Part shown: positions 7,420 to 38,404 of the stretch, one piece after another
How positions within the stretch are numbered: position 1 is the first letter of the stretch
Layout: every line of letters begins with the position of its first letter
Source of the DNA: a virus
Strand: one strand, 5' to 3'
Virus record (IMG/VR): IMGVR_UViG_3300020498_000008
Location: 1 to 39,114 of that record
DNA: 39,114 nt
Notes under the pieces: model-generated
What the model saw: the letters and a program-made list of their open reading frames with translations, nothing else
Told to the model about the DNA's origin: nothing
The model's database searches: none
Position numbers and translations under genes: made by a program

Positions 7420-7763
7420 TAACGAGTAACTCCTTCTGTTACCAGAACCATACCCTCAATAACTCTATTCTTGACATTAAATTCATCCGTAATTACTACA
7501 TCATAAACATATCTTCCAGGTTTTATATCTGATGTTTCTGCTCCAGTTAATCTTAAAAAAATTCTTCCAGAAGTTGTTGGAGGTAAAATTGATGCTGTAA
7601 AATTTATTGCAGAAGAACTTCCTGCCCATTTTCTCATTTGAGAAGCTACCGTATATCCAGTTAAATTAAATAGAGAATTATTTTCAACACCTTCTAATGT
7701 GAAAGTTTGAGTAAATTCGGAACCGGCATTTATAACTAGGTTATTAACATATACGGCTGCCAT
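7419..7763 (-). CDS. small virion structural protein, possible fibre adaptor
   Basis: This 114-aa protein looks like an immunoglobulin-like or BppU-N-like adaptor domain. It has alternating strands (SEFTQTFTLEGVENNSLFNL; IFLRLTGAETSDIKPGRYV) and ends in VIEGMVLVTEGVTR, a pattern seen in cyanophage and siphophage tail accessory proteins. It is the first gene after a late-type promoter and is translationally coupled to the following fibre-like gene through a one-base overlap. Its place before the fibre-like protein suggests it joins that fibre to the tail, but this is inferred. Confidence 0.6.
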   Translation of the reverse strand: MAAVYVNNLVINAGSEFTQTFTLEGVENNSLFNLTGYTVASQMRKWAGSSSAINFTASILPPTTSGRIFLRLTGAETSDIKPGRYVYDVVITDEFNVKNRVIEGMVLVTEGVTR

Positions 7764-33731: not shown

Positions 33732-33754
33732 GCGGCGGCATAAAAACCCGCCGC
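33732..33754 (-). terminator. GC-rich stem-loop at the edge of the GC-rich island
   Basis: A perfect 7-bp stem GCGGCGG...CCGCCGC with a 9-base loop (on the mRNA strand the loop contains TTTTTA). It lies about 70 bases downstream of the last GC-rich gene, where base composition drops abruptly to AT-rich. An alternative stem pairs GTTTTTAT with ATAAAAAC around the same sequence. No U-run follows, so termination would be inefficient or factor-aided. The stretch 33641-33790 otherwise contains no gene that I can support. Confidence 0.45.
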
Positions 33755-33790
33755 ACCCGACTGCCAAACACGAACGCATAAGGAACTGCC

Positions 33791-33824
33791 CCCCACCCGT
33801 AAGGGCAGAGGGCAGGGGGTGGGG
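33791..33824 (-). terminator. GC-rich stem-loop directly after the 63-aa gene
   Basis: CCCCACCC (33791-33798) pairs with GGGTGGGG (33817-33824), an 8-bp stem with an 18-base loop, starting immediately after the stop codon at 33825. It is followed by only a weak T-run. It likely ends or stabilises the transcript of the last mini-unit. Confidence 0.45.
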
Positions 33825-34016
33825 TCACCAGGTCGGCAGTGCCTCCTCTGCTTCCTGAGCGTGTGTCTCAGCATACTGGGCTGCCAGCACGGAAGCGGGC
33901 AGACCCCAGTGGATGTATGCCGAAGGGCGGGACCCGTTCTTCAGTTGGTCGGCACGGGAAATCCACTTGATTTGACGGGTCTGGAGGTCAGAGCACATCG
34001 CAAGGGGGAAGCGCAT
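33825..34016 (-). CDS. 63-aa protein of unknown function in the GC-rich island
   Basis: The product begins MRFPLAMCSDLQTRQIKWIS and ends YAETHAQEAEEALPTW. I chose the ATG at 34016 because a promoter (TTGACC, 18 bases, TACAAT) ends 24 bases upstream, which matches the neighbouring mini-units. A longer reading would start inside that promoter. GC content is far above the virion module. Residues 19-42 contain a Trp/Tyr-rich core (IKWISRADQLKNGSRPSAYI) and the C-terminus is an acidic helix. No family recognised. Confidence 0.55.
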   Translation of the reverse strand: MRFPLAMCSDLQTRQIKWISRADQLKNGSRPSAYIHWGLPASVLAAQYAETHAQEAEEALPTW

Positions 34017-34040
34017 CGGTCGTCTGTCGGTTGCTTTGGA

Positions 34041-34070
34041 ATTGTAGGGCACGAACGGGGTAGGGGTCAA
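34041..34070 (-). promoter_or_regulatory. promoter of the 63-aa gene
   Basis: On the minus strand TTGACC (34065-34070) and TACAAT (34041-34046) are separated by 18 bases, each 5 of 6 to the sigma70 consensus. The -35 overlaps the stop codon region of the upstream 62-aa gene. A 24-base leader containing CAAAGCAACCGAC leads to the ATG without a Shine-Dalgarno. Confidence 0.6.
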
Positions 34071-34255
34071 TACCCCAACCACACCAGAAACTCACCCGTA
34101 TCGACAGGACCGAAGCGGGCGGTCACCCCATAGTCGGTGCGGAAGTCATCCCACAGACCGTGATCCTTTGCTGCCTGGCAGGCGGTGCCCCATCGGATGC
34201 ACCCGTTCTCATCAGTGCAGGATTCCAGCAGGTCAGGGAAGGTGGCGAAGGTCAT
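34067..34255 (-). CDS. 62-aa protein of unknown function
   Basis: The product begins MTFATFPDLLESCTDENGCI and ends PVDTGEFLVWLGY. It is acidic with two Cys (residues 13 and 19) and several Trp. The start at 34255 is supported by a TACAAT box exactly 24 bases upstream and a leader (CAAAGCAACCGAC) nearly identical to that of the next unit. Codons are GC-rich. I recall no named family. Because it has its own promoter and leader it is a separate mini-unit, not part of a long operon. Confidence 0.62.
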   Translation of the reverse strand: MTFATFPDLLESCTDENGCIRWGTACQAAKDHGLWDDFRTDYGVTARFGPVDTGEFLVWLGY

Positions 34256-34279
34256 CGGGTCGGTGTCGGTTGCTTTGAT

Positions 34280-34285
34280 ATTGTA
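34280..34285 (-). promoter_or_regulatory. extended -10 box TGC-TACAAT
   Basis: TACAAT preceded by TGC (extended -10) lies 24 bases before the ATG at 34255 and three bases after the TGA of the HicA-like gene. No good -35 is visible at 16-18 bases. The 18-bp block around it recurs at 34749-34766. Confidence 0.5.
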
Positions 34286-34290
34286 GCAGG

Positions 34291-34512
34291 TCAGGCGGCG
34301 GATTTGGCAGCGAGCATCAGGGCATGGAATTTATGGAATTCGTGGGTCATGCCAGGGGAGAGCGTCGGGCGTCCCTTGCTACCGTGAGCGGGGAGGTGGA
34401 AGGTCTGGGCGATGGCGGGGTGAGTCACTTTGTCGTGACTGCCGCCTGATTTGATTGTGGCGCCTGCCTTCAGAATCAGGCGGCGGGCGTCACGAATCTT
34501 GAGCGGTTGCAT
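34291..34512 (-). CDS. HicA-like small protein
   Basis: This 73-aa protein reads MQPLKIRDARRLILKAGATI at the start. It then has GGSHDKVTHP (about 23-32), FHLPAHGSKGRPTLSPGM (about 38-55) and a C-terminal helix. The layout is that of the HicA dsRBD-like fold: helix, GSH motif, RHP-like turn, strand with V/LPxHG, and LxPG before the last helix. HicA toxins are mRNA interferases whose catalytic His is the first His of GSHH; here it is GSHD, so His26 is kept. I chose the ATG at 34512, 22 bases after a TACCAT box; a longer start would run through a terminator hairpin. No HicB partner lies next to it. A non-toxin HicA-fold RNA-binding role is possible. Confidence 0.6.
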   Translation of the reverse strand: MQPLKIRDARRLILKAGATIKSGGSHDKVTHPAIAQTFHLPAHGSKGRPTLSPGMTHEFHKFHALMLAAKSAA

Positions 34513-34534
34513 CAGGTCGGTTGCGGTCTTCCTA

Positions 34535-34540
34535 ATGGTA
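34535..34540 (-). promoter_or_regulatory. -10-like box TACCAT before the HicA-like gene
   Basis: TACCAT lies 22 bases before the ATG at 34512 and directly after the hairpin 34541-34569. The leader ends CGCAACCGACCTG, matching the CAACCGAC leaders of three nearby units. The hexamer is only 4 of 6 to consensus and no -35 is seen, so support comes mainly from the repeated layout. Confidence 0.38.
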
Positions 34541-34569
34541 AGACCCCCAGCGGCGAACCGTGGGGGTCT
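34541..34569 (-). terminator. stem-loop between the 47-aa gene and the HicA-like gene
   Basis: AGACCCCCA (34541-34549) and TGGGGGTCT (34561-34569) form a perfect 9-bp stem with an 11-base loop, 10 bases after the stop of the 47-aa gene. It is followed on the mRNA strand by TTACCATT, not a proper U-run. A likely 3'-end or insulating structure. Confidence 0.55.
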
Positions 34570-34579
34570 GGGGTCAGAT

Positions 34580-34723
34580 TCAGAATTGGATCGCTTCGAA
34601 GTAGGCGGCGCAGTCTGCAATGTTGGCGTCTGCCTCATCGTTGGCGATGGTCTCCAGAATCTCCAGCAGTTGGGCGCCAGTGGCAGCGCGATTCAGGAGG
34701 GCGGTTGCGAGGTCCAGGGTCAT
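34580..34723 (-). CDS. 47-aa acidic helical peptide
   Basis: The product reads MTLDLATALLNRAATGAQLL, EILETIANDEADANIADCAA, then YFEAIQF. It is a short helical, acidic, Ala/Leu-rich protein. Similar peptides (LLxILDxI cores) occur in cyanophages as I recall. The start at 34723 is supported by a TGC-TACAAT box 26 bases upstream and a leader ending GAAACC-ATG with no Shine-Dalgarno. A strong hairpin follows the stop. Function unknown. Confidence 0.6.
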   Translation of the reverse strand: MTLDLATALLNRAATGAQLLEILETIANDEADANIADCAAYFEAIQF

Positions 34724-34749
34724 GGTTTCAGGGGATGTGGGGTGAGAGT

Positions 34750-34755
34750 ATTGTA
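34750..34755 (-). promoter_or_regulatory. extended -10 box TGC-TACAAT
   Basis: TACAAT with an upstream TGC lies 26 bases before the ATG at 34723 and starts soon after the TGA of the 58-aa gene. The same 18-bp block is found 470 bp away at 34279-34296. No -35 element is evident. Confidence 0.5.
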
Positions 34756-34760
34756 GCAGG

Positions 34761-34937
34761 TCAGGCAGCGATCAGAACGTCATCCTCCCAGCGGGCAGCG
34801 GTCAGAATCTCATCGTAAATTCGGTCTGCGACCTGCTCAACATAACGACGCTCATCTGCCTTCAGGATGGCAGCGCGACACTGGGCAGCAATCTCATCGA
34901 TGGAGATGGCACGGTCGGTGGCGGGGTTGTAGCGCAT
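34761..34937 (-). CDS. 58-aa protein of unknown function
   Basis: The product begins MRYNPATDRAISIDEIAAQC and ends WEDDVLIAA. It is helical, with alternating acidic and basic residues (RAAILKADERRYVEQVADRI). The start at 34937 follows a TAGAAT box by 28 bases, and the leader carries CAACCAAAGGCAACCGAC, as in the neighbouring mini-units. It is GC-rich with strong third-position G/C use. I do not recognise the family. Confidence 0.6.
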   Translation of the reverse strand: MRYNPATDRAISIDEIAAQCRAAILKADERRYVEQVADRIYDEILTAARWEDDVLIAA

Positions 34938-34965
34938 GGGTCGGTTGCCTTTGGTTGACTTTAGA

Positions 34966-34971
34966 ATTCTA
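34966..34971 (-). promoter_or_regulatory. -10 box TAGAAT before the 58-aa gene
   Basis: TAGAAT lies 28 bases upstream of the ATG at 34937 and directly downstream of the GC-rich hairpin 34980-34999. The leader contains the CAACCGAC element. No -35 is visible because the hairpin occupies that place. Confidence 0.42.
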
Positions 34972-34979
34972 AGGGGTCA

Positions 34980-34999
34980 GGGGGTCGGGCGTGACCCCC
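34980..34999 (-). terminator. GC-rich stem-loop after the SGDEAREF protein gene
   Basis: GGGGGTC and GACCCCC form a perfect 7-bp stem with a 6-base loop. It lies 14 bases downstream of the stop at 35014. The bases between the stop and the stem contain ACTGGCACA, an element also found near hairpins at 37090 and 37544. On the mRNA strand CCTTAGAATT follows, which is partly U-rich. Confidence 0.5.
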
Positions 35000-35013
35000 A
35001 GTGTGCCAGTGCC

Positions 35014-35190
35014 TCAGTCGGCATAGAGGCGCTGGAAGTCGTCCACAAACTCCCGTGCCTCATCGCCACTCATGCGGGCGATCATCTCACGGGCGATGGT
35101 CTCCCAGGAGAAATCGTCTGCCAGGTCAAAAATGGCGCAGCGTGCCTCAGAGGCGGAGAGTTCGGAGGCGGTGATCTGGGCGTAGGTCAT
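35014..35190 (-). CDS. 58-aa acidic protein with MSGDEAREFVDDF motif
   Basis: The product begins MTYAQITASELSASEARCAI and ends MSGDEAREFVDDFQRLYAD. The C-terminal motif SGDEAREFVDDFQRLY resembles small proteins common in cyanophages, as I recall them, of unknown function. It is acidic and helical. The ATG at 35190 follows a TAGGAT box by 25 bases in a leader ending CCCCACC-ATG with no Shine-Dalgarno. The leader is nearly identical to that of the next gene upstream. Confidence 0.65.
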   Translation of the reverse strand: MTYAQITASELSASEARCAIFDLADDFSWETIAREMIARMSGDEAREFVDDFQRLYAD

Positions 35191-35191
35191 G

Positions 35192-35229
35192 GTGGGGTTC
35201 GTTTGGTATGGGATAATCCTACAGGGTCA
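35192..35229 (-). repeat. leader repeat copy A with -10 TAGGAT
   Basis: This 38-bp block lies between the DUF8033-like gene and the 58-aa gene. It matches 35491-35527 with a single extra C. It holds TAGGAT (35216-35221), a possible -10 box 25 bases before the ATG at 35190, and an A/C-rich leader ending ACCCCACC. It begins with TGACCC, so in copy B it also carries a stop codon. Confidence 0.65.
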
Positions 35230-35234
35230 GGGGG

Positions 35235-35486
35235 TCAGAATGCCACCAGTTGGTCCAGATCCCATTGTGGCACACGCGCCGCCCCATCGATCACATAGGT
35301 GCCCTGATGCTTCCGCAGCCAGGCGTTAATGTGCTTTGTCGTCGTCGCGCTCCACTGGTAGGCGGTCCGCATCCACCCTTTGCCAGGGACGATGGCGGCG
35401 ACGGGGGTCTGATAGGAGAACAGGACGCAGGTCCCGTCTGCCAGGGTGACTTCGGTTTGGTTGCTGCCGACTTGCTGAACTTTCAT
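35235..35486 (-). CDS. DUF8033-like conserved phage protein
   Basis: This 83-aa protein begins MKVQQVGSNQTEVTLADGTC, followed by VLFSYQTPVAAIVPGKGWMR and YQWSATTTKHINAWLRKHQG. The order of NQTEV, VLFSYxTPVAA, PGxG and TTxKHINxWL matches my memory of the DUF8033 family, found in many phages and some bacteria with no known function. It is a full-length small alpha/beta protein. Its leader (35487-35524) is one copy of a 37-38 bp repeat holding a TAGGAT box 27 bases upstream of the ATG. No Shine-Dalgarno. Confidence 0.75.
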   Translation of the reverse strand: MKVQQVGSNQTEVTLADGTCVLFSYQTPVAAIVPGKGWMRTAYQWSATTTKHINAWLRKHQGTYVIDGAARVPQWDLDQLVAF

Positions 35487-35490
35487 TGGA

Positions 35491-35527
35491 GTGGGGTTGT
35501 TTGGTATGGGATAATCCTACAGGGTCA
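35491..35527 (-). repeat. leader repeat copy B with -10 TAGGAT
   Basis: This 37-bp copy matches 35192-35229. It overlaps the stop of the 38-aa peptide (35525-35527) and supplies a TAGGAT box (35514-35519), 27 bases before the ATG at 35486, plus an AACCCCAC leader. Duplication of a whole promoter-leader block in front of two unrelated genes. Confidence 0.65.
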
Positions 35528-35641
35528 GCGGCGCAGTTGGTCGGCAGCGAGTGCCAGTGCGTCAGCTGTCACATAGCGAACGGGTGCCAGCGGTTGCCAC
35601 AGTAGGAAGGTGACACCAGCAGCTGCTAGGAGCTTGAGCAT
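35525..35641 (-). CDS. 38-aa peptide with hydrophobic N-terminus
   Basis: The product reads MLKLLAAAGVTFLLWQPLAP then VRYVTADALALAADQLRR. Residues 3-18 are hydrophobic enough for a membrane anchor or signal segment, followed by a short amphipathic helix. I recall similar tiny cyanophage proteins ending TADALxxAAD. The ATG at 35641 is preceded by GCTACC with no Shine-Dalgarno. A TATGAT box lies 46 bases upstream, overlapping the end of the previous gene. It ends inside leader repeat copy B. Confidence 0.62.
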   Translation of the reverse strand: MLKLLAAAGVTFLLWQPLAPVRYVTADALALAADQLRR

Positions 35642-35687
35642 GGTAGCGCGGTGAAAGTCAGCGGAGCGGGAACGGGTCAGGGAGTGG

Positions 35688-35693
35688 ATCATA
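35688..35693 (-). promoter_or_regulatory. -10-like box TATGAT at the end of the PD-(D/E)XK-like gene
   Basis: TATGAT overlaps the stop codon of the nuclease-like gene and lies 46 bases upstream of the 38-aa peptide's ATG, longer than other leaders here. No -35 was found. It may serve the 38-aa gene. Confidence 0.35.
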
Positions 35694-36135
35694 CCATAAA
35701 CTCCTCTACAAACTGTTCGTGAGAGATGATGCGAACATCAGGATAGATTCGCTTCATATCAGTCTGAAACTCATCGCTGAGATAGTATTCTTTCCACTTC
35801 CATGCTTTATCAGGTCCAGCAATCACAATCACGGCATCTTTGTAACCATGATCATTCACAGCATGTTGCAGTTTCATTACCTCAAACGGAATCTTTTCTT
35901 CCGCAGTTCCTTGCACACGCTGATACTTCAGACTGATAAGATGTTGCTCATTCAGAAGAATGTCAACATAATGACGCCCACCATTGCGTTTGGCACCGAT
36001 GTTAACTTGTGCCTGAACTTTGTGATCGGTGTGCTCAGTGAGCAGTTCTTCCACCACATCTTCATAAGATTTGCCAGTGGTAGTGTTGCGGGATGCGGTG
36101 GTTGCCACGGGGTTTCTCTCAACTGAAGATATCAT
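35689..36135 (-). CDS. PD-(D/E)XK nuclease-like protein
   Basis: This 148-aa protein has the core of a restriction-endonuclease fold. A helix with GKSYEDVVEELL (21-32) is followed by strand GGRHYVDILL with Asp58, a short loop, strand ISLKYQ with Lys70, and RVQGTAEEKIPFEVMKLQ (73-90). The catalytic pattern would be Asp58 ... Ser68-Leu-Lys70, i.e. D...SxK instead of D...ExK. The following QGTAEEKI helix is a hallmark I associate with small nuclease-like proteins of this superfamily. The ATG at 36135 lies inside a TATGAT box; a GTG at 36108 (22 bases after that box, leader GAAACCCC) fits the neighbouring units better and would give 139 aa. DNA cleavage is inferred. Confidence 0.65.
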   Translation of the reverse strand: MISSVERNPVATTASRNTTTGKSYEDVVEELLTEHTDHKVQAQVNIGAKRNGGRHYVDILLNEQHLISLKYQRVQGTAEEKIPFEVMKLQHAVNDHGYKDAVIVIAGPDKAWKWKEYYLSDEFQTDMKRIYPDVRIISHEQFVEEFMV

Positions 36136-36136
36136 A
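36131..36136 (-). promoter_or_regulatory. -10 box TATGAT for the nuclease-like gene
   Basis: TATGAT overlaps the possible ATG at 36135 and lies 22 bases before a GTG at 36108. It closely follows the hairpin region after the DUF6267 gene. If this is the real -10, the GTG start must be used. Confidence 0.42.
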
Positions 36137-36165
36137 AGGCATCAGGCAGTCCCCACAAGGGGGTG

Positions 36166-36189
36166 TGTGCCACTTGTTCAGCTGGCACA
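36166..36189 (-). terminator. stem-loop spanning the DUF6267 stop codon
   Basis: TGTGCCA and TGGCACA form a perfect 7-bp stem; the TGA stop (36178-36180) lies in the 10-base loop. A second small hairpin (CCCC-TTGT-GGGG) follows. The 3' end of the coding region therefore doubles as part of the terminator-like structure. Confidence 0.5.
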
Positions 36190-37074
36190 CTGAAAGCGTC
36201 CGCTGTTGAAGTTAGCATAACTGAAGACCTCACGATTCACCAGTTTGAACATACCAAACTGATTGGTGAGAACATAACCTTCTGCATCGATTCTGTTGCC
36301 GTAGAGATAAGCAGCAGGACCATCATTGCGGCAGAGGAACAAACAGTCATCTTTGATAGACTTCACCAATGCCCACAGACGCAGCAGGTTAGCATCACAA
36401 TCAAAGTCATCGGGATTCACTTCCTCACCAGCACGAATACAAGCGTTGATTTGCTGTTTAATCTTTGCTGCTTCCTTAACAGAAACGAACTCACAAGCAG
36501 TAGACATTTGACGGGCGAACTTGCACACCTCTTCAACATCAGCGAACGACTCCTGATTGTGCAGGATGTATGCATTCGGTTTCACGAACTTCACCGTTTC
36601 GGTATCAGTCCAGATGCTACGGTCAGGGAAAGCTTCCGCATCACGAAGATCGCTCTTTGCATAATAGCAAGTGTGAGGAGCGATGATGATACTTTGAGTA
36701 ACTACTTCTGGGAACTTATAGGTAATTGTGTTGGGAGTGTACTCAGACAATCCACCAAACCCGATAAAATCACCTTGGTAGATAGTATCGAACCGAGGAA
36801 GAGAATCCAGGCAACAATGTAGAATTTGCGCGACATTACCCTCATGGTTTGCATCAATGTCCTCATGCGATTCGTTGATTTTGATTTTAACTTTGTTGAA
36901 CACACTTTTGGTGCCAACGAAGAAGTTTCCAGTAGCAGGATTGGTGCCCCAAACAATAGCAGGAGCACCGTCAATCTTAACACTCAAGGTGCCAGGATTC
37001 ACGAACCAATTCAGAACAGAAAGGTCACCCGTCAGGATGGTGTCTTCGGGGTGTTCGAGGTGTGTGTTTTTCAT
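36178..37074 (-). CDS. DUF6267 family protein with nucleotidyltransferase-like motifs
   Basis: This 298-aa protein matches the DUF6267 family as I recall it from T4-like phages (THLEHPEDTILTGDLSVLNW at 4-23; FVGTKSVFNKVKIKINESHE at 52-71). I see a motif order like covalent nucleotidyltransferases (DNA/RNA ligases). SVKIDG at 31-36 resembles KxDG motif I with Lys33. Then FVGTKS, YQGDFIGFGG at 99-108 (motif III-like), AEGYVL at 264-269 (motif IV-like, Glu265) and FKLV at 276-279 (motif V-like, Lys277). This suggests an ATP- or NTP-dependent ligase-like or pseudo-ligase role, an inference. A TATCTT box lies only six bases before the ATG, so the mRNA could be nearly leaderless. The 3' end forms a hairpin. 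Confidence 0.75.
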   Translation of the reverse strand: MKNTHLEHPEDTILTGDLSVLNWFVNPGTLSVKIDGAPAIVWGTNPATGNFFVGTKSVFNKVKIKINESHEDIDANHEGNVAQILHCCLDSLPRFDTIYQGDFIGFGGLSEYTPNTITYKFPEVVTQSIIIAPHTCYYAKSDLRDAEAFPDRSIWTDTETVKFVKPNAYILHNQESFADVEEVCKFARQMSTACEFVSVKEAAKIKQQINACIRAGEEVNPDDFDCDANLLRLWALVKSIKDDCLFLCRNDGPAAYLYGNRIDAEGYVLTNQFGMFKLVNREVFSYANFNSGRFQCAS

Positions 37075-37080
37075 ACTCTT

Positions 37081-37113
37081 AAGATAGCAGGGGTTGCTGC
37101 CAACCGCAACCCC
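37081..37113 (-). terminator. stem-loop plus -10-like TATCTT before DUF6267
   Basis: GGGGTTGC (37090-37097) and GCAACCCC (37106-37113) form a perfect 8-bp stem with an 8-base loop, 22 bases after the stop of the 78-aa gene and preceded by AACTGGCACA. It is followed on the mRNA strand by TGC-TATCTT (37081-37086), an extended -10-like site for the next gene. It likely separates the two units. Confidence 0.5.
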
Positions 37114-37135
37114 CCTTGTGCCAGTTCCTCAACTG

Positions 37136-37372
37136 TCACATCTCAGGAGTTTCTTTCAACTCCACGCCATTATCTTCGAACCATTCATCACCATAACACT
37201 CACGAATGTCGGTGATAAGTTCTTCCTCACTGTAGTCATTATAAGACGAAACAAGTGTATCAAACACGAATTGTTCCATCGTCTTCATGTCCATCGAATC
37301 CATCACGAACTCGGCATACTTCTCAACAAGTCCGCTGAAATCGTCGGTCCAGGTTTTAGCGTTGTTGGTCAT
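37136..37372 (-). CDS. conserved acidic cyanophage protein
   Basis: This 78-aa protein reads MTNNAKTWTDDFSGLVEKYA, EFVMDSMDMKTMEQFVFDTL, then SSYNDYSEEELITDIRECYG and a DEWFEDNG tail. It is strongly acidic and helical, and very similar peptides recur in T4-like cyanophages. The DMKTMEQFVFDTL segment is the most typical. It starts five bases after the 41-aa gene stop (TGAAACC-ATG), so the two form a short operon. Function unknown; an acidic DNA-mimic or inhibitor peptide is possible but unproven. Confidence 0.75.
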   Translation of the reverse strand: MTNNAKTWTDDFSGLVEKYAEFVMDSMDMKTMEQFVFDTLVSSYNDYSEEELITDIRECYGDEWFEDNGVELKETPEM

Positions 37373-37376
37373 GGTT

Positions 37377-37502
37377 TCAGTAATCGTAGTTAGCGTTCAG
37401 GTACTCATTGACATCGAACTTTTCATCTTTGAGTTCAGGAATGTCAAGGTCAAAAATCTCACCAGGCATGTCTTGGATTTCAGACCAGAGTTCATCAAAC
37501 AT
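37377..37502 (-). CDS. 41-aa acidic conserved peptide
   Basis: The product reads MFDELWSEIQDMPGEIFDLD, IPELKDEKFDVNEYLNANYD and a final Tyr. It is very acidic and probably helical. The ATG at 37502 follows a TAAATT box by 24 bases in a leader ending GACAAACC-ATG, the pattern of this region. It is the first gene of a two-gene unit with the 78-aa protein. Too short for family assignment; similar peptides in cyanophages are likely. Confidence 0.68.
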   Translation of the reverse strand: MFDELWSEIQDMPGEIFDLDIPELKDEKFDVNEYLNANYDY

Positions 37503-37526
37503 GGTTTGTCTCTCAGGAACAAATGT

Positions 37527-37532
37527 AATTTA
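37527..37532 (-). promoter_or_regulatory. -10-like box TAAATT
   Basis: TAAATT (TACATT overlaps it a few bases later) lies 24 bases upstream of the ATG at 37502 and about 12 bases after the hairpin 37544-37568. The spacing matches the other mini-units. No -35 is evident. Confidence 0.38.
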
Positions 37533-37543
37533 TCAGGGATTCA

Positions 37544-37568
37544 GGCACACCGCAAGGGGGTGTGTGCC
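37544..37568 (-). terminator. stem-loop with ACTGGCACA element
   Basis: GGCACAC and GTGTGCC form a perfect 7-bp stem with an 11-base loop (ACCCCCTTGCG on the mRNA strand). The 5' arm belongs to an AACTGGCACA element shared with 37090 and, in variant form, 34980. It sits between the upstream inverted repeat and the -10 of the 41-aa gene. Confidence 0.48.
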
Positions 37569-37586
37569 AGTTCTCCAATTGGTTGC

Positions 37587-37616
37587 ATTCTCAATAACTA
37601 AGGTCTTATTGAGAAT
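37587..37616. repeat. perfect 11-bp inverted repeat ATTCTCAATAA
   Basis: ATTCTCAATAA (37587-37597) and TTATTGAGAAT (37606-37616) flank an 8-base spacer. A further half-site, TTGAGAAT, follows at about 37633. The 15-mer TTGATTCTCAATAAG on the minus strand here is repeated exactly at the 38311-38346 element. It could be a bidirectional hairpin or an operator. The gap 37569-37664 holds no other feature. Confidence 0.6.
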
Positions 37617-37664
37617 CAATAAGGACTATTAATTGAGAATAAGGACAATATTCAAACTGTCACA

Positions 37665-37872: not shown

Positions 37873-38002
37873 GTGCTTCGAGATCATGTGTATCTCGTGC
37901 ATAATCCTCGTCGAGATCTAGTGCATCAGATGCATAATACTCGTCGAGATCGTATGAGTAATCTGTTGCGTATGTATAGTCGAGATCGTAGTCGTCGTAC
38001 AT
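37850..38002 (-). CDS. 50-aa Asp/Tyr-rich repeat protein
   Basis: The product reads MYDDYDLDYTYATDYSYDLD, EYYASDALDLDEDYARDTHD and ends LEALAYRHYA. It is extremely acidic and built from YDLDxxY-type repeats; the DEDYARDxxxLxALAYRHYA end resembles small cyanophage proteins I recall. The start at 38002 is preceded by a TACAAT box 30 bases away. A longer reading upstream would run through the promoter and repeats. The repeated codons GAT-CTC-GAC-GAG that give DLDE are also part of the DNA palindrome that recurs in the non-coding leader. Function unknown. Confidence 0.62.
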   Translation of the reverse strand: MYDDYDLDYTYATDYSYDLDEYYASDALDLDEDYARDTHDLEALAYRHYA

Positions 38003-38032
38003 AGCTCGTCGAGATTGTATGAATGCTTGTGT

Positions 38033-38061
38033 ATTGTAGCACAAATCTCGACGAGATGCAA
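38033..38061 (-). promoter_or_regulatory. promoter TTGCAT-17-TACAAT with palindrome in the spacer
   Basis: TTGCAT (38056-38061) and TGC-TACAAT (38033-38038) are exactly 17 bases apart on the minus strand. One perfect ATCTCGACGAGAT copy (38045-38057) fills the spacer and overlaps the -35, as an operator would. It is 30 bases upstream of the Asp/Tyr-rich gene start. Confidence 0.6.
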
Positions 38062-38153
38062 GAACTAGATGTAGTCTCGTCGAGATCTTATGATAGTATA
38101 TATGTAGTCTAGTCGAGATTTGTGTGCTTCTAGACACATAAGATCTCGTCGAG
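38040..38153 (-). other. candidate structured leader RNA with competing inverted repeats
   Basis: CTCGTCGAGATCTTATG (38076-38092) is complementary at 16 of 17 positions to 38137-38153. Inside it GTCTAG (38107-38112) pairs with CTAGAC (38130-38135). A third pairing, 13 perfect bases between 38040-38052 and 38112-38124, crosses the first, so the long stems cannot all form as a simple nested fold. This layout suggests an attenuator-like or switch-like leader, or simply inverted duplications of the repeat. Confidence 0.45.
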
Positions 38154-38182
38154 ATTCTATCACGAACTTATAAGAATGTCAA
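38154..38182 (-). promoter_or_regulatory. strong promoter TTGACA-17-TAGAAT
   Basis: A perfect -35 (38177-38182), a 17-base spacer and TAGAAT (38154-38159, 5 of 6) form a near-consensus sigma70 promoter. The expected start site (about 38147) lies in the centre of a perfect ATCTCGTCGAGAT palindrome (38143-38155). It would produce a leader of about 145 nt rich in inverted repeats before the Asp/Tyr-rich gene. Confidence 0.7.
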
Positions 38183-38404
38183 GGTCCTGGGGATTTCGGC
38201 GCGTCGTGGGGCTTGACAAACTGCGCGTCTTATGCTAAACAGACTTAGCCCACAAGAACTGGAGGGGTTTAGAAGACTTATAACACTCTATTCTCAACAA
38301 TAATACTCAATTGATTCTCATTAATATTATACTTATTGAGAATCAAATAAAACAGTAATATATGTTTTTTAATACCTTTTTTAATTAAATTTAAGTTAAA
38401 AACA
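38183..38404. other. non-coding stretch between the 49-aa gene and the strong promoter
   Basis: No coding gene is supportable here. It holds the 10-bp inverted repeat with central TATAAT (38311-38346) and a half-site at about 38290. It also has two direct GCGCGTC copies (about 38200 and 38224), and a small hairpin GCTAA/TTAGC at about 38234-38249. A GC-rich patch at 38190-38230 contains a plus-strand TTGACA without a good -10. No tRNA fold was recognised. Confidence 0.4.
38311..38346 (-). promoter_or_regulatory. operator-like inverted repeat centred on a TATAAT box
   Basis: Perfect 10-bp arms TTGATTCTCA (38311-38320) and TGAGAATCAA (38337-38346) flank 16 bases. A TATAAT on the minus strand (38326-38331) sits exactly in the middle, five bases from each arm. 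One arm plus flank is identical (15 bases) to the element at 37587-37616. The half-site TGAGAATC resembles half of a Fur-type box; this resemblance is weak. Confidence 0.5.

Follow-up and report, generated by a model that had tools for sequence, protein, structure and literature searches.

A palindrome at fixed distance from a -10 box marks putative exchangeable promoter cassettes among the small genes of a T4-like cyanophage

Towards one end of the viral record IMGVR_UViG_3300020498_000008, analysed here over its full 39,114 bases (the window), lies a crowd of very small genes that is probably organised as a chain of equally small promoter cassettes, each serving one or two genes, exchanged in the course of evolution, and read by the host polymerase together with a factor bound to a palindrome. 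The virus is, to judge by its genes, a T4-like cyanophage of the Kyanoviridae type: the nearest relatives of its T4-like virion genes are cyanomyoviruses, headed by S-SRM01 (from a Singapore reservoir) and S-SKS1, and its small-gene end yields partial matches only, to S-SRM01, Bellamy and DSL-LC03. Genes are lettered from the right, gA to gQ, and every gene discussed lies on the minus strand. At the heart of the chain is a composite element made of an imperfect palindrome (NNKGMCASTT-N4-AASTGGCACA), 29-30 nucleotides (nt) that often include a hairpin, and a TATAAT-like -10 box; it occurs at five units in the window (gE, gG, gH, gJ and gL) and across T4-like cyanophages. Such composites are most likely early or middle promoters at which host RNA polymerase would act with a putative factor at the palindrome. 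A preliminary description of this DNA had recognised the chain, but missed the conserved palindrome with its fixed spacing, the 60% GC content of gI-gP and the exchange of leaders among unrelated genes.

Upstream of 45 distinct relatives of gL the parts follow one another in near-constant order: the preceding stop codon, ACTGGCACA, a variable GC-rich stretch, the -10 box and an A/C-rich leader, with ACTGGCACA forming the right half of an imperfect palindrome around a four-base centre. The fetched loci contain 644 palindromic elements and their shuffled counterparts 48 (counts in which one palindrome may score on both strands), and across whole genomes the pairing of TGGCACA with a -10 box is strongly strand-biased, a reversed-pattern control being near zero. 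The distance between the two is close to invariant. In eight genomes (S-SRM01, S-PM2, Syn9, P-SSM2, part of S-CRM01 and three viral contigs) the TATAAT-like box stands at an offset of 29 in 29 cases and of 30 in 11, with all other offsets at 0-3; among 975 unique half-sites from viral contigs, with a box counted if it was also followed by an A and had a purine at +7, it stands at 29 in 124 and at 30 in 121, the next highest offset having 12, so that these two distances account for 245 of about 290 counted cases. A mirror control has its maximum at 43-44, a result of viewing these promoters from their other half-site. Palindromes sit exactly at the borders of units and cassettes have clearly been swapped between genes, as would suit a site of recombination or site-specific exchange whose distance from the -10 was inherited by copying and serves no function. 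We consider this very unlikely: the spacing is constant in phages from the sea and from fresh water even though their spacers can no longer be aligned, and copying alone is insufficient because the 29-30 nt are kept while all the intervening sequence changes.

What follows the box also resembles a promoter. Of the 89 composites that have an open reading frame (ORF) start nearby, 87 have a purine at +7 after the -10 and 70 a T at +8, neither position having been used in their selection. Composites lead to annotated gene starts in P-SSM2 (129,430, a peptidase; 132,801, cobS; and many small genes), S-PM2 (192,507, a helicase; 195,718, an endonuclease) and S-SRM01 (149,914, a MoxR ATPase; 157,884). 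For the Syn9 peptidase gene gp150 (L373:1053-1074), the composite predicts a translation start 21 nt downstream of that annotated. In 45 of the 89, the palindromic element encloses the stop codon of the preceding ORF. Measured against a sigma-70 promoter, composites have the TATAAT-like -10 and not the -35 TTGACA at 16-18 nt; most do without a -35, since a hexamer with at least four of six matches is present in just 24 (8 expected) and the remaining 65 reach three or fewer. Two other identities were rejected: sigma-54 for TGGCACA-N-TTGC, where the spacing is wrong, and a CRP-type site, where it is the half-site spacing that is wrong. To our knowledge, cyanobacteria lack sigma-54 altogether.

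Within the window, we compared 15 small minus-strand genes (gA-gP without gB, 33.8-39.0 kb) with 21 virion and neighbouring genes, accepting as a -10 box any TA...T hexamer with at least four of six matches to TATAAT that begins 24-34 nt before the start codon. Ten of the 15 small genes have a box of their own, where shuffled leaders lead one to expect 1.3; the virion and neighbouring genes have five, where 4.4 are expected. The two sets also differ in how translation seems to begin. The energy of duplexes between leader and CCUCCU averages -0.42 for the small genes against -0.36 after shuffling, thus no Shine-Dalgarno (SD) signal above chance, and -3.32 against -1.28 for the virion genes, where the signal is present. 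Small-gene leaders are A/C-rich, frequently with ACC or CCC as their last bases, and four of them (those of gP, gO, gN and gL) hold the sole copies of CAACCGAC in the window, against 0.27 expected. The small-gene chain has no match to the late-promoter motif NATAAATA; the virion genes at 7763, 16903, 31150 and 31836 each have one 18-24 nt ahead of them. The preliminary description had proposed a separate -10 box for most genes, SD-less leaders often ending in ACC or CCC, a motif common to several leaders and a contrast with the SD sites and late promoters of the virion module, and each of these proposals held. Its further suggestion that the units are autonomous survives in part, in that most genes have a predicted promoter to themselves; full autonomy is unsupported because gF, which begins 5 nt after gE, and gI, which overlaps gH, are without one and because no good terminator lies between units. 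These couplings (gE-gF and gH-gI), the missing terminators and the confinement of all the genes to one strand are what one or a few long early transcripts would produce, with the -10 boxes as chance or minor sites. Such an arrangement is quite unlikely given ten properly spaced boxes where 1.3 are expected, boxes that are moreover conserved in relatives and accompanied by the start-site signature.

Between palindrome and -10, the spacer often folds more stably than shuffled sequence (mean z of -1.6 and -1.4 in two sets), and the stem in the spacer of gL relatives has two pairs changed on both sides, modest support drawn from eight sequences. A stem-loop stands directly before the putative promoter, recognised by sequence only, in a large share of copies but not in all. 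Hairpins rich in GC between several units were likewise part of the preliminary description and are found at gL (-15.1 kcal/mol), gG (-17.7) and gN (-22.0), yet no U-tract follows the inter-unit hairpins of the window, and good terminator-like hairpins on the gene strand appear solely at the 3' end of the chain, where two lie at 33751-33815. Hairpin spacers with a run of five T make up 13 of the 89 composites and 17 of 375 spacers elsewhere. The palindrome itself makes more sense as a site in DNA than as a stem in RNA, because its position 8 seldom pairs (it is complementary in 23 of the 89 composites and in 16% of a wider scan) and because many left arms in S-SRM01, S-PM2 and viral contig G005 are GAGGACA or similar, with which TGGCACA cannot pair; an RNA hairpin was rejected for most copies on these grounds. 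The same observations bear on the plainest alternative, in which the units are ordinary host-type ones, a sigma-70-like and often extended -10 promoter behind a terminator hairpin, and the palindrome is merely part of that upstream terminator or of an RNA-processing hairpin. The host-like -10 and purine start, the 13 spacers with hairpin and T run, the position of the palindrome over or after the upstream stop codon and the existence of short-form leaders that manage without it all fit this account. We nevertheless find it doubtful, as it does not explain a palindrome that mostly fails to pair at position 8 or has an unpairable GAGGACA arm, a distance of 29-30 nt that is constant whatever sequence intervenes, or the absence of the composite from genomes of the host family.

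That absence was seen with a strict form of the composite (AASTGGCACA-N29/30-TAYAATA-N5-R), which has 35 matches in 16 phage records and none when the pattern is reversed; it has no match in 121 host-family genomes, nor in T4 or Microcystis phage Ma-LMM01. The commonest leader is missing from the same 121 genomes, and a host origin of leader and composite was rejected on this basis. A genome-wide scan with the exact palindrome returned 27 scattered matches in 257 Gb, mostly outside cyanobacteria, and in the papers searched the string 'tggcaca' turned up together with 'cyanophage' only as a cobS primer. Of the earlier suggestion that the chain is expressed in the style of host machinery, the -10 box and purine start are thus host-like, while the palindrome-to-(-10) composite is absent from the 121 host-family genomes, and plain host promoters are therefore less likely than the involvement of a factor specific to the phage.

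Cassettes are not tied to particular genes. The leader TACAATACTCTCAGTTCAAACGAC, 24 nt long, or a close copy of it precedes ten unrelated protein families at 37 loci, and of the 67 leader groups with at least five members, 24 span two or more families; conversely, 16 leader groups are found before the single family of gL relatives. Within the window, gJ and gK have a 44-nt stretch in common (89% identity), and gO and gP one of 43 nt (77% identity). Identity extends across positions without a known role, and therefore suggests copying and not convergence. Related viruses appear in this way to have swapped cassette parts between unrelated genes, presumably through recombination.

In the explanation that we favour, a full cassette would have five parts. 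It would open with the imperfect palindrome, often enclosing the stop codon of the preceding gene, and continue through 29-30 nt usually able to form a GC hairpin to the TATAAT-like -10 box; transcription would start at the purine 7 nt after the box, and an A/C-rich leader of 15-20 nt without SD (or no leader, as at gG) would lead into the gene. Host RNA polymerase with its primary sigma factor would read the -10, and a putative protein on the palindrome, centred near -54, would compensate for the usually absent -35. The hairpin slot may insulate the unit from upstream transcription or terminate it in some copies, and translation would start without SD pairing. Recombination would move cassettes between phages and between genes, and new small genes would therefore arrive ready-wired for expression. 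Several observations weigh against this explanation: the palindrome is absent from about half of the units in the interval (gK, gM, gN, gO and gP); a -35-like hexamer is present in 24 of the 89 composites, three times the 8 expected, so its lack is not universal; many spacers fold poorly, and the window's inter-unit hairpins lack a U-tract; and the strict form has no match in DSL-LC03, S-SKS1 and two viral contigs. A bolder version, which we offer tentatively, makes the palindrome the site of a phage-encoded activator that takes the place of MotA/AsiA and defines a class of early/middle promoters in T4-like cyanophages, and the whole unit of stop codon, hairpin, promoter and leader a plug-in cassette that wires up new small genes, GC-rich foreign ones included.

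Doron et al. reportedly described in 2016 (ISME J) a novel early-gene regulatory element in Syn9 and P-TIM40 that is conserved among T4-like cyanophages; our palindrome composite may be the same element, and hence a rediscovery. In the middle promoters of T4, a phage factor replaces the -35 and acts with a host-type -10. The cassettes proposed here resemble them in pairing a host-type -10 with a factor in place of the -35, but the MotA box of T4 lies near -30 and the cyanophage palindrome is centred near -54; a 9-bp MotA box centred at -30 was looked for in the 89 composites, and no strongly conserved positions were found near -30. Cyanophages lack motA and asiA, and it has been unclear by what means those of the T4-like group turn on their early and middle genes in the absence of MotA and AsiA (PMC2984593). 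A strictly spaced, conserved composite offers a concrete site for tests and a bait for the putative factor; where hundreds of small ORFs have gone unannotated, it also picks out the genuine gene starts, and the cassettes offer a mechanism by which new host-takeover genes might be gained and expressed.

Closest in overall design are the promoter-early stem-loop (PeSL) cassettes of T4-like phages (Arbiol et al. 2010; Comeau et al. 2014; both as cited in PMC4503421). As far as they are described there, PeSLs too join a stem-loop to an early promoter between genes in a region of small variable genes, and similar copies precede unrelated genes and are linked to gene shuffling. Relative to that description, the cyanophage composite adds a palindrome 29-30 nt before the -10, often holding the upstream stop codon, and it is mostly without a -35 and often without a U-tract after the hairpin. 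A study of S-PM2 found few PeSLs in that phage and judged them unlikely to account for its ORFan region; of the nine composites in S-PM2, four (5.1-11.3 kb) border this region or fall within it.

The short, A/C-rich, SD-less leaders also recall the SD-less and leaderless translation of cyanobacteria and phages, from which they would differ in being cassettes common to unrelated genes. The likeness extends to gG (298 amino acids (aa), 36178-37074; DUF6267, profile match 1.3e-80), whose messenger RNA is predicted to be leaderless. Its -10 box TATCTT (37081-37086) ends 6 nt before the ATG, and in most distinct upstream regions of gG relatives a -10-like box (TATCTT, CATACT, AATACT or TACAAT) stands at exactly this distance, in 27 of 35 by reading of the list and in 14 by a stricter script test. 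Taken with the purine rule, the 6-nt distance predicts a transcript start at the A of the ATG. The gG palindrome (TGTGACAGTT GAGG AACTGGCACA, 37117-37140) overlaps the stop region of gF, and its 30-nt spacer (37087-37116) holds the -17.7 kcal/mol hairpin, again with no U-tract.

Upstream of gG, the chain includes gE (41 aa, 37377-37502; no function assigned, one of a family of 39 ORFs in related loci) and the promoterless gF (78 aa, 37136-37372; DUF7326). The gE palindrome (37563-37586) has the right half AACTGGCACA as an exact half-site at 37563-37572 and a degenerate left half; the -10 TAAATT (37527-37532) follows after 30 nt, then the leader (37503-37526) and the ATG at 37502. Beyond gG, the palindrome of gH (36166-36189) contains the gG stop codon and is followed after 29 nt by TATGAT (36131-36136), a leader at 36109-36130 and a GTG start at 36108; gH itself (139 aa, 35689-36108) is PD-(D/E)XK nuclease-like (PF20472, 1.2e-8), and the promoterless gI (55 aa, 35525-35692) overlaps it. 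Within gI lies the variant palindrome of gJ (TGTGACAGCT GACG CACTGGCACT, 35550-35573), ahead of the -10 TAGGAT (35514-35519), a leader (35487-35513) near-identical to that of gK, and gJ (83 aa, 35235-35486; phrog_5643, 1.7e-28).

Several genes of the GC-rich block have a short form of the cassette that lacks the palindrome. At gK (58 aa, 35014-35190; a family of 41 ORFs) it consists of TAGGAT (35216-35221) and leader, together 35191-35221. The full form returns at gL (58 aa, 34761-34937), whose palindrome (TATGCCGACT GAGG CACTGGCACA, 35002-35025) holds the gK stop codon and is conserved in gL relatives, of which at least 107 viral stretches have one (80 loci kept); the 30-nt spacer (34972-35001) forms the hairpin GGGGGTC/GACCCCC, to which the two compensatory pairs belong, and the -10 TAGAAT (34966-34971) is followed by a leader (34938-34965) containing CAACCGAC. 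A leader scan then gives TACAAT (34750-34755) and leader (34724-34755 in all) for gM (47 aa, 34580-34723), an ORF. Before gN (73 aa, 34291-34512) come the hairpin of about -22 kcal/mol and a weak -10, TACCAT at 34535-34540, both within 34526-34572. The gN product resembles HicA-type toxins by phrog_18430 (3.5e-18), its Pfam HicA match (3.7e-4) being below the cut-off, and no obvious HicB lies beside it. The leader scan and repeats place TACAAT (34280-34285, extended by TGC) and leader CAAAGCAACCGAC at 34256-34285 before gO (62 aa, 34067-34255), and the counterpart before gP (63 aa, 33825-34016), TACAAT at 34041-34046 within 34017-34046, is 77% identical to it; gO and gP are likewise ORFs. A Rfam scan of 33.0-39.1 kb gave no match up to E = 1, and so no known riboswitch or small RNA.

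The block from gI to gP (33,825-35,692) stands out in composition, at 58-62% GC with third-position GC content (GC3) of 0.62-0.76 against 0.12-0.31 for the virion genes, or about 60% GC against some 32% in the rest of the window. Comparable islands occur in related AT-rich phage contigs (G001 at 59-63 kb, G004 at 53-55 kb, G005 at 59-60 kb) and in S-PM2 (21-24 kb). Compared with named phages by tblastn, the GC-rich proteins represented among the matches listed are gJ, which also matches enterobacterial phages, and one other; gJ, the one gene of the island searched for in the host-family genomes, was not found there, in a search that had no positive control.

Other repeats lie to the right of gE. 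Seven palindromes of the TCTCGACGAGA type at 37906-38154 (10 matches on both strands, 0.2 expected) sit upstream of and within gC, a small Asp/Tyr-rich ORF, and are possibly a second operator-like repeat; CTCGACGAG is present in S-SRM01 as well, near 88.2 kb. The genes gC and gD are flanked by an imperfect inverted repeat of 55 nt (37587-37641 and 38289-38343, 647 nt apart) that is rich in TTGAGAATC.

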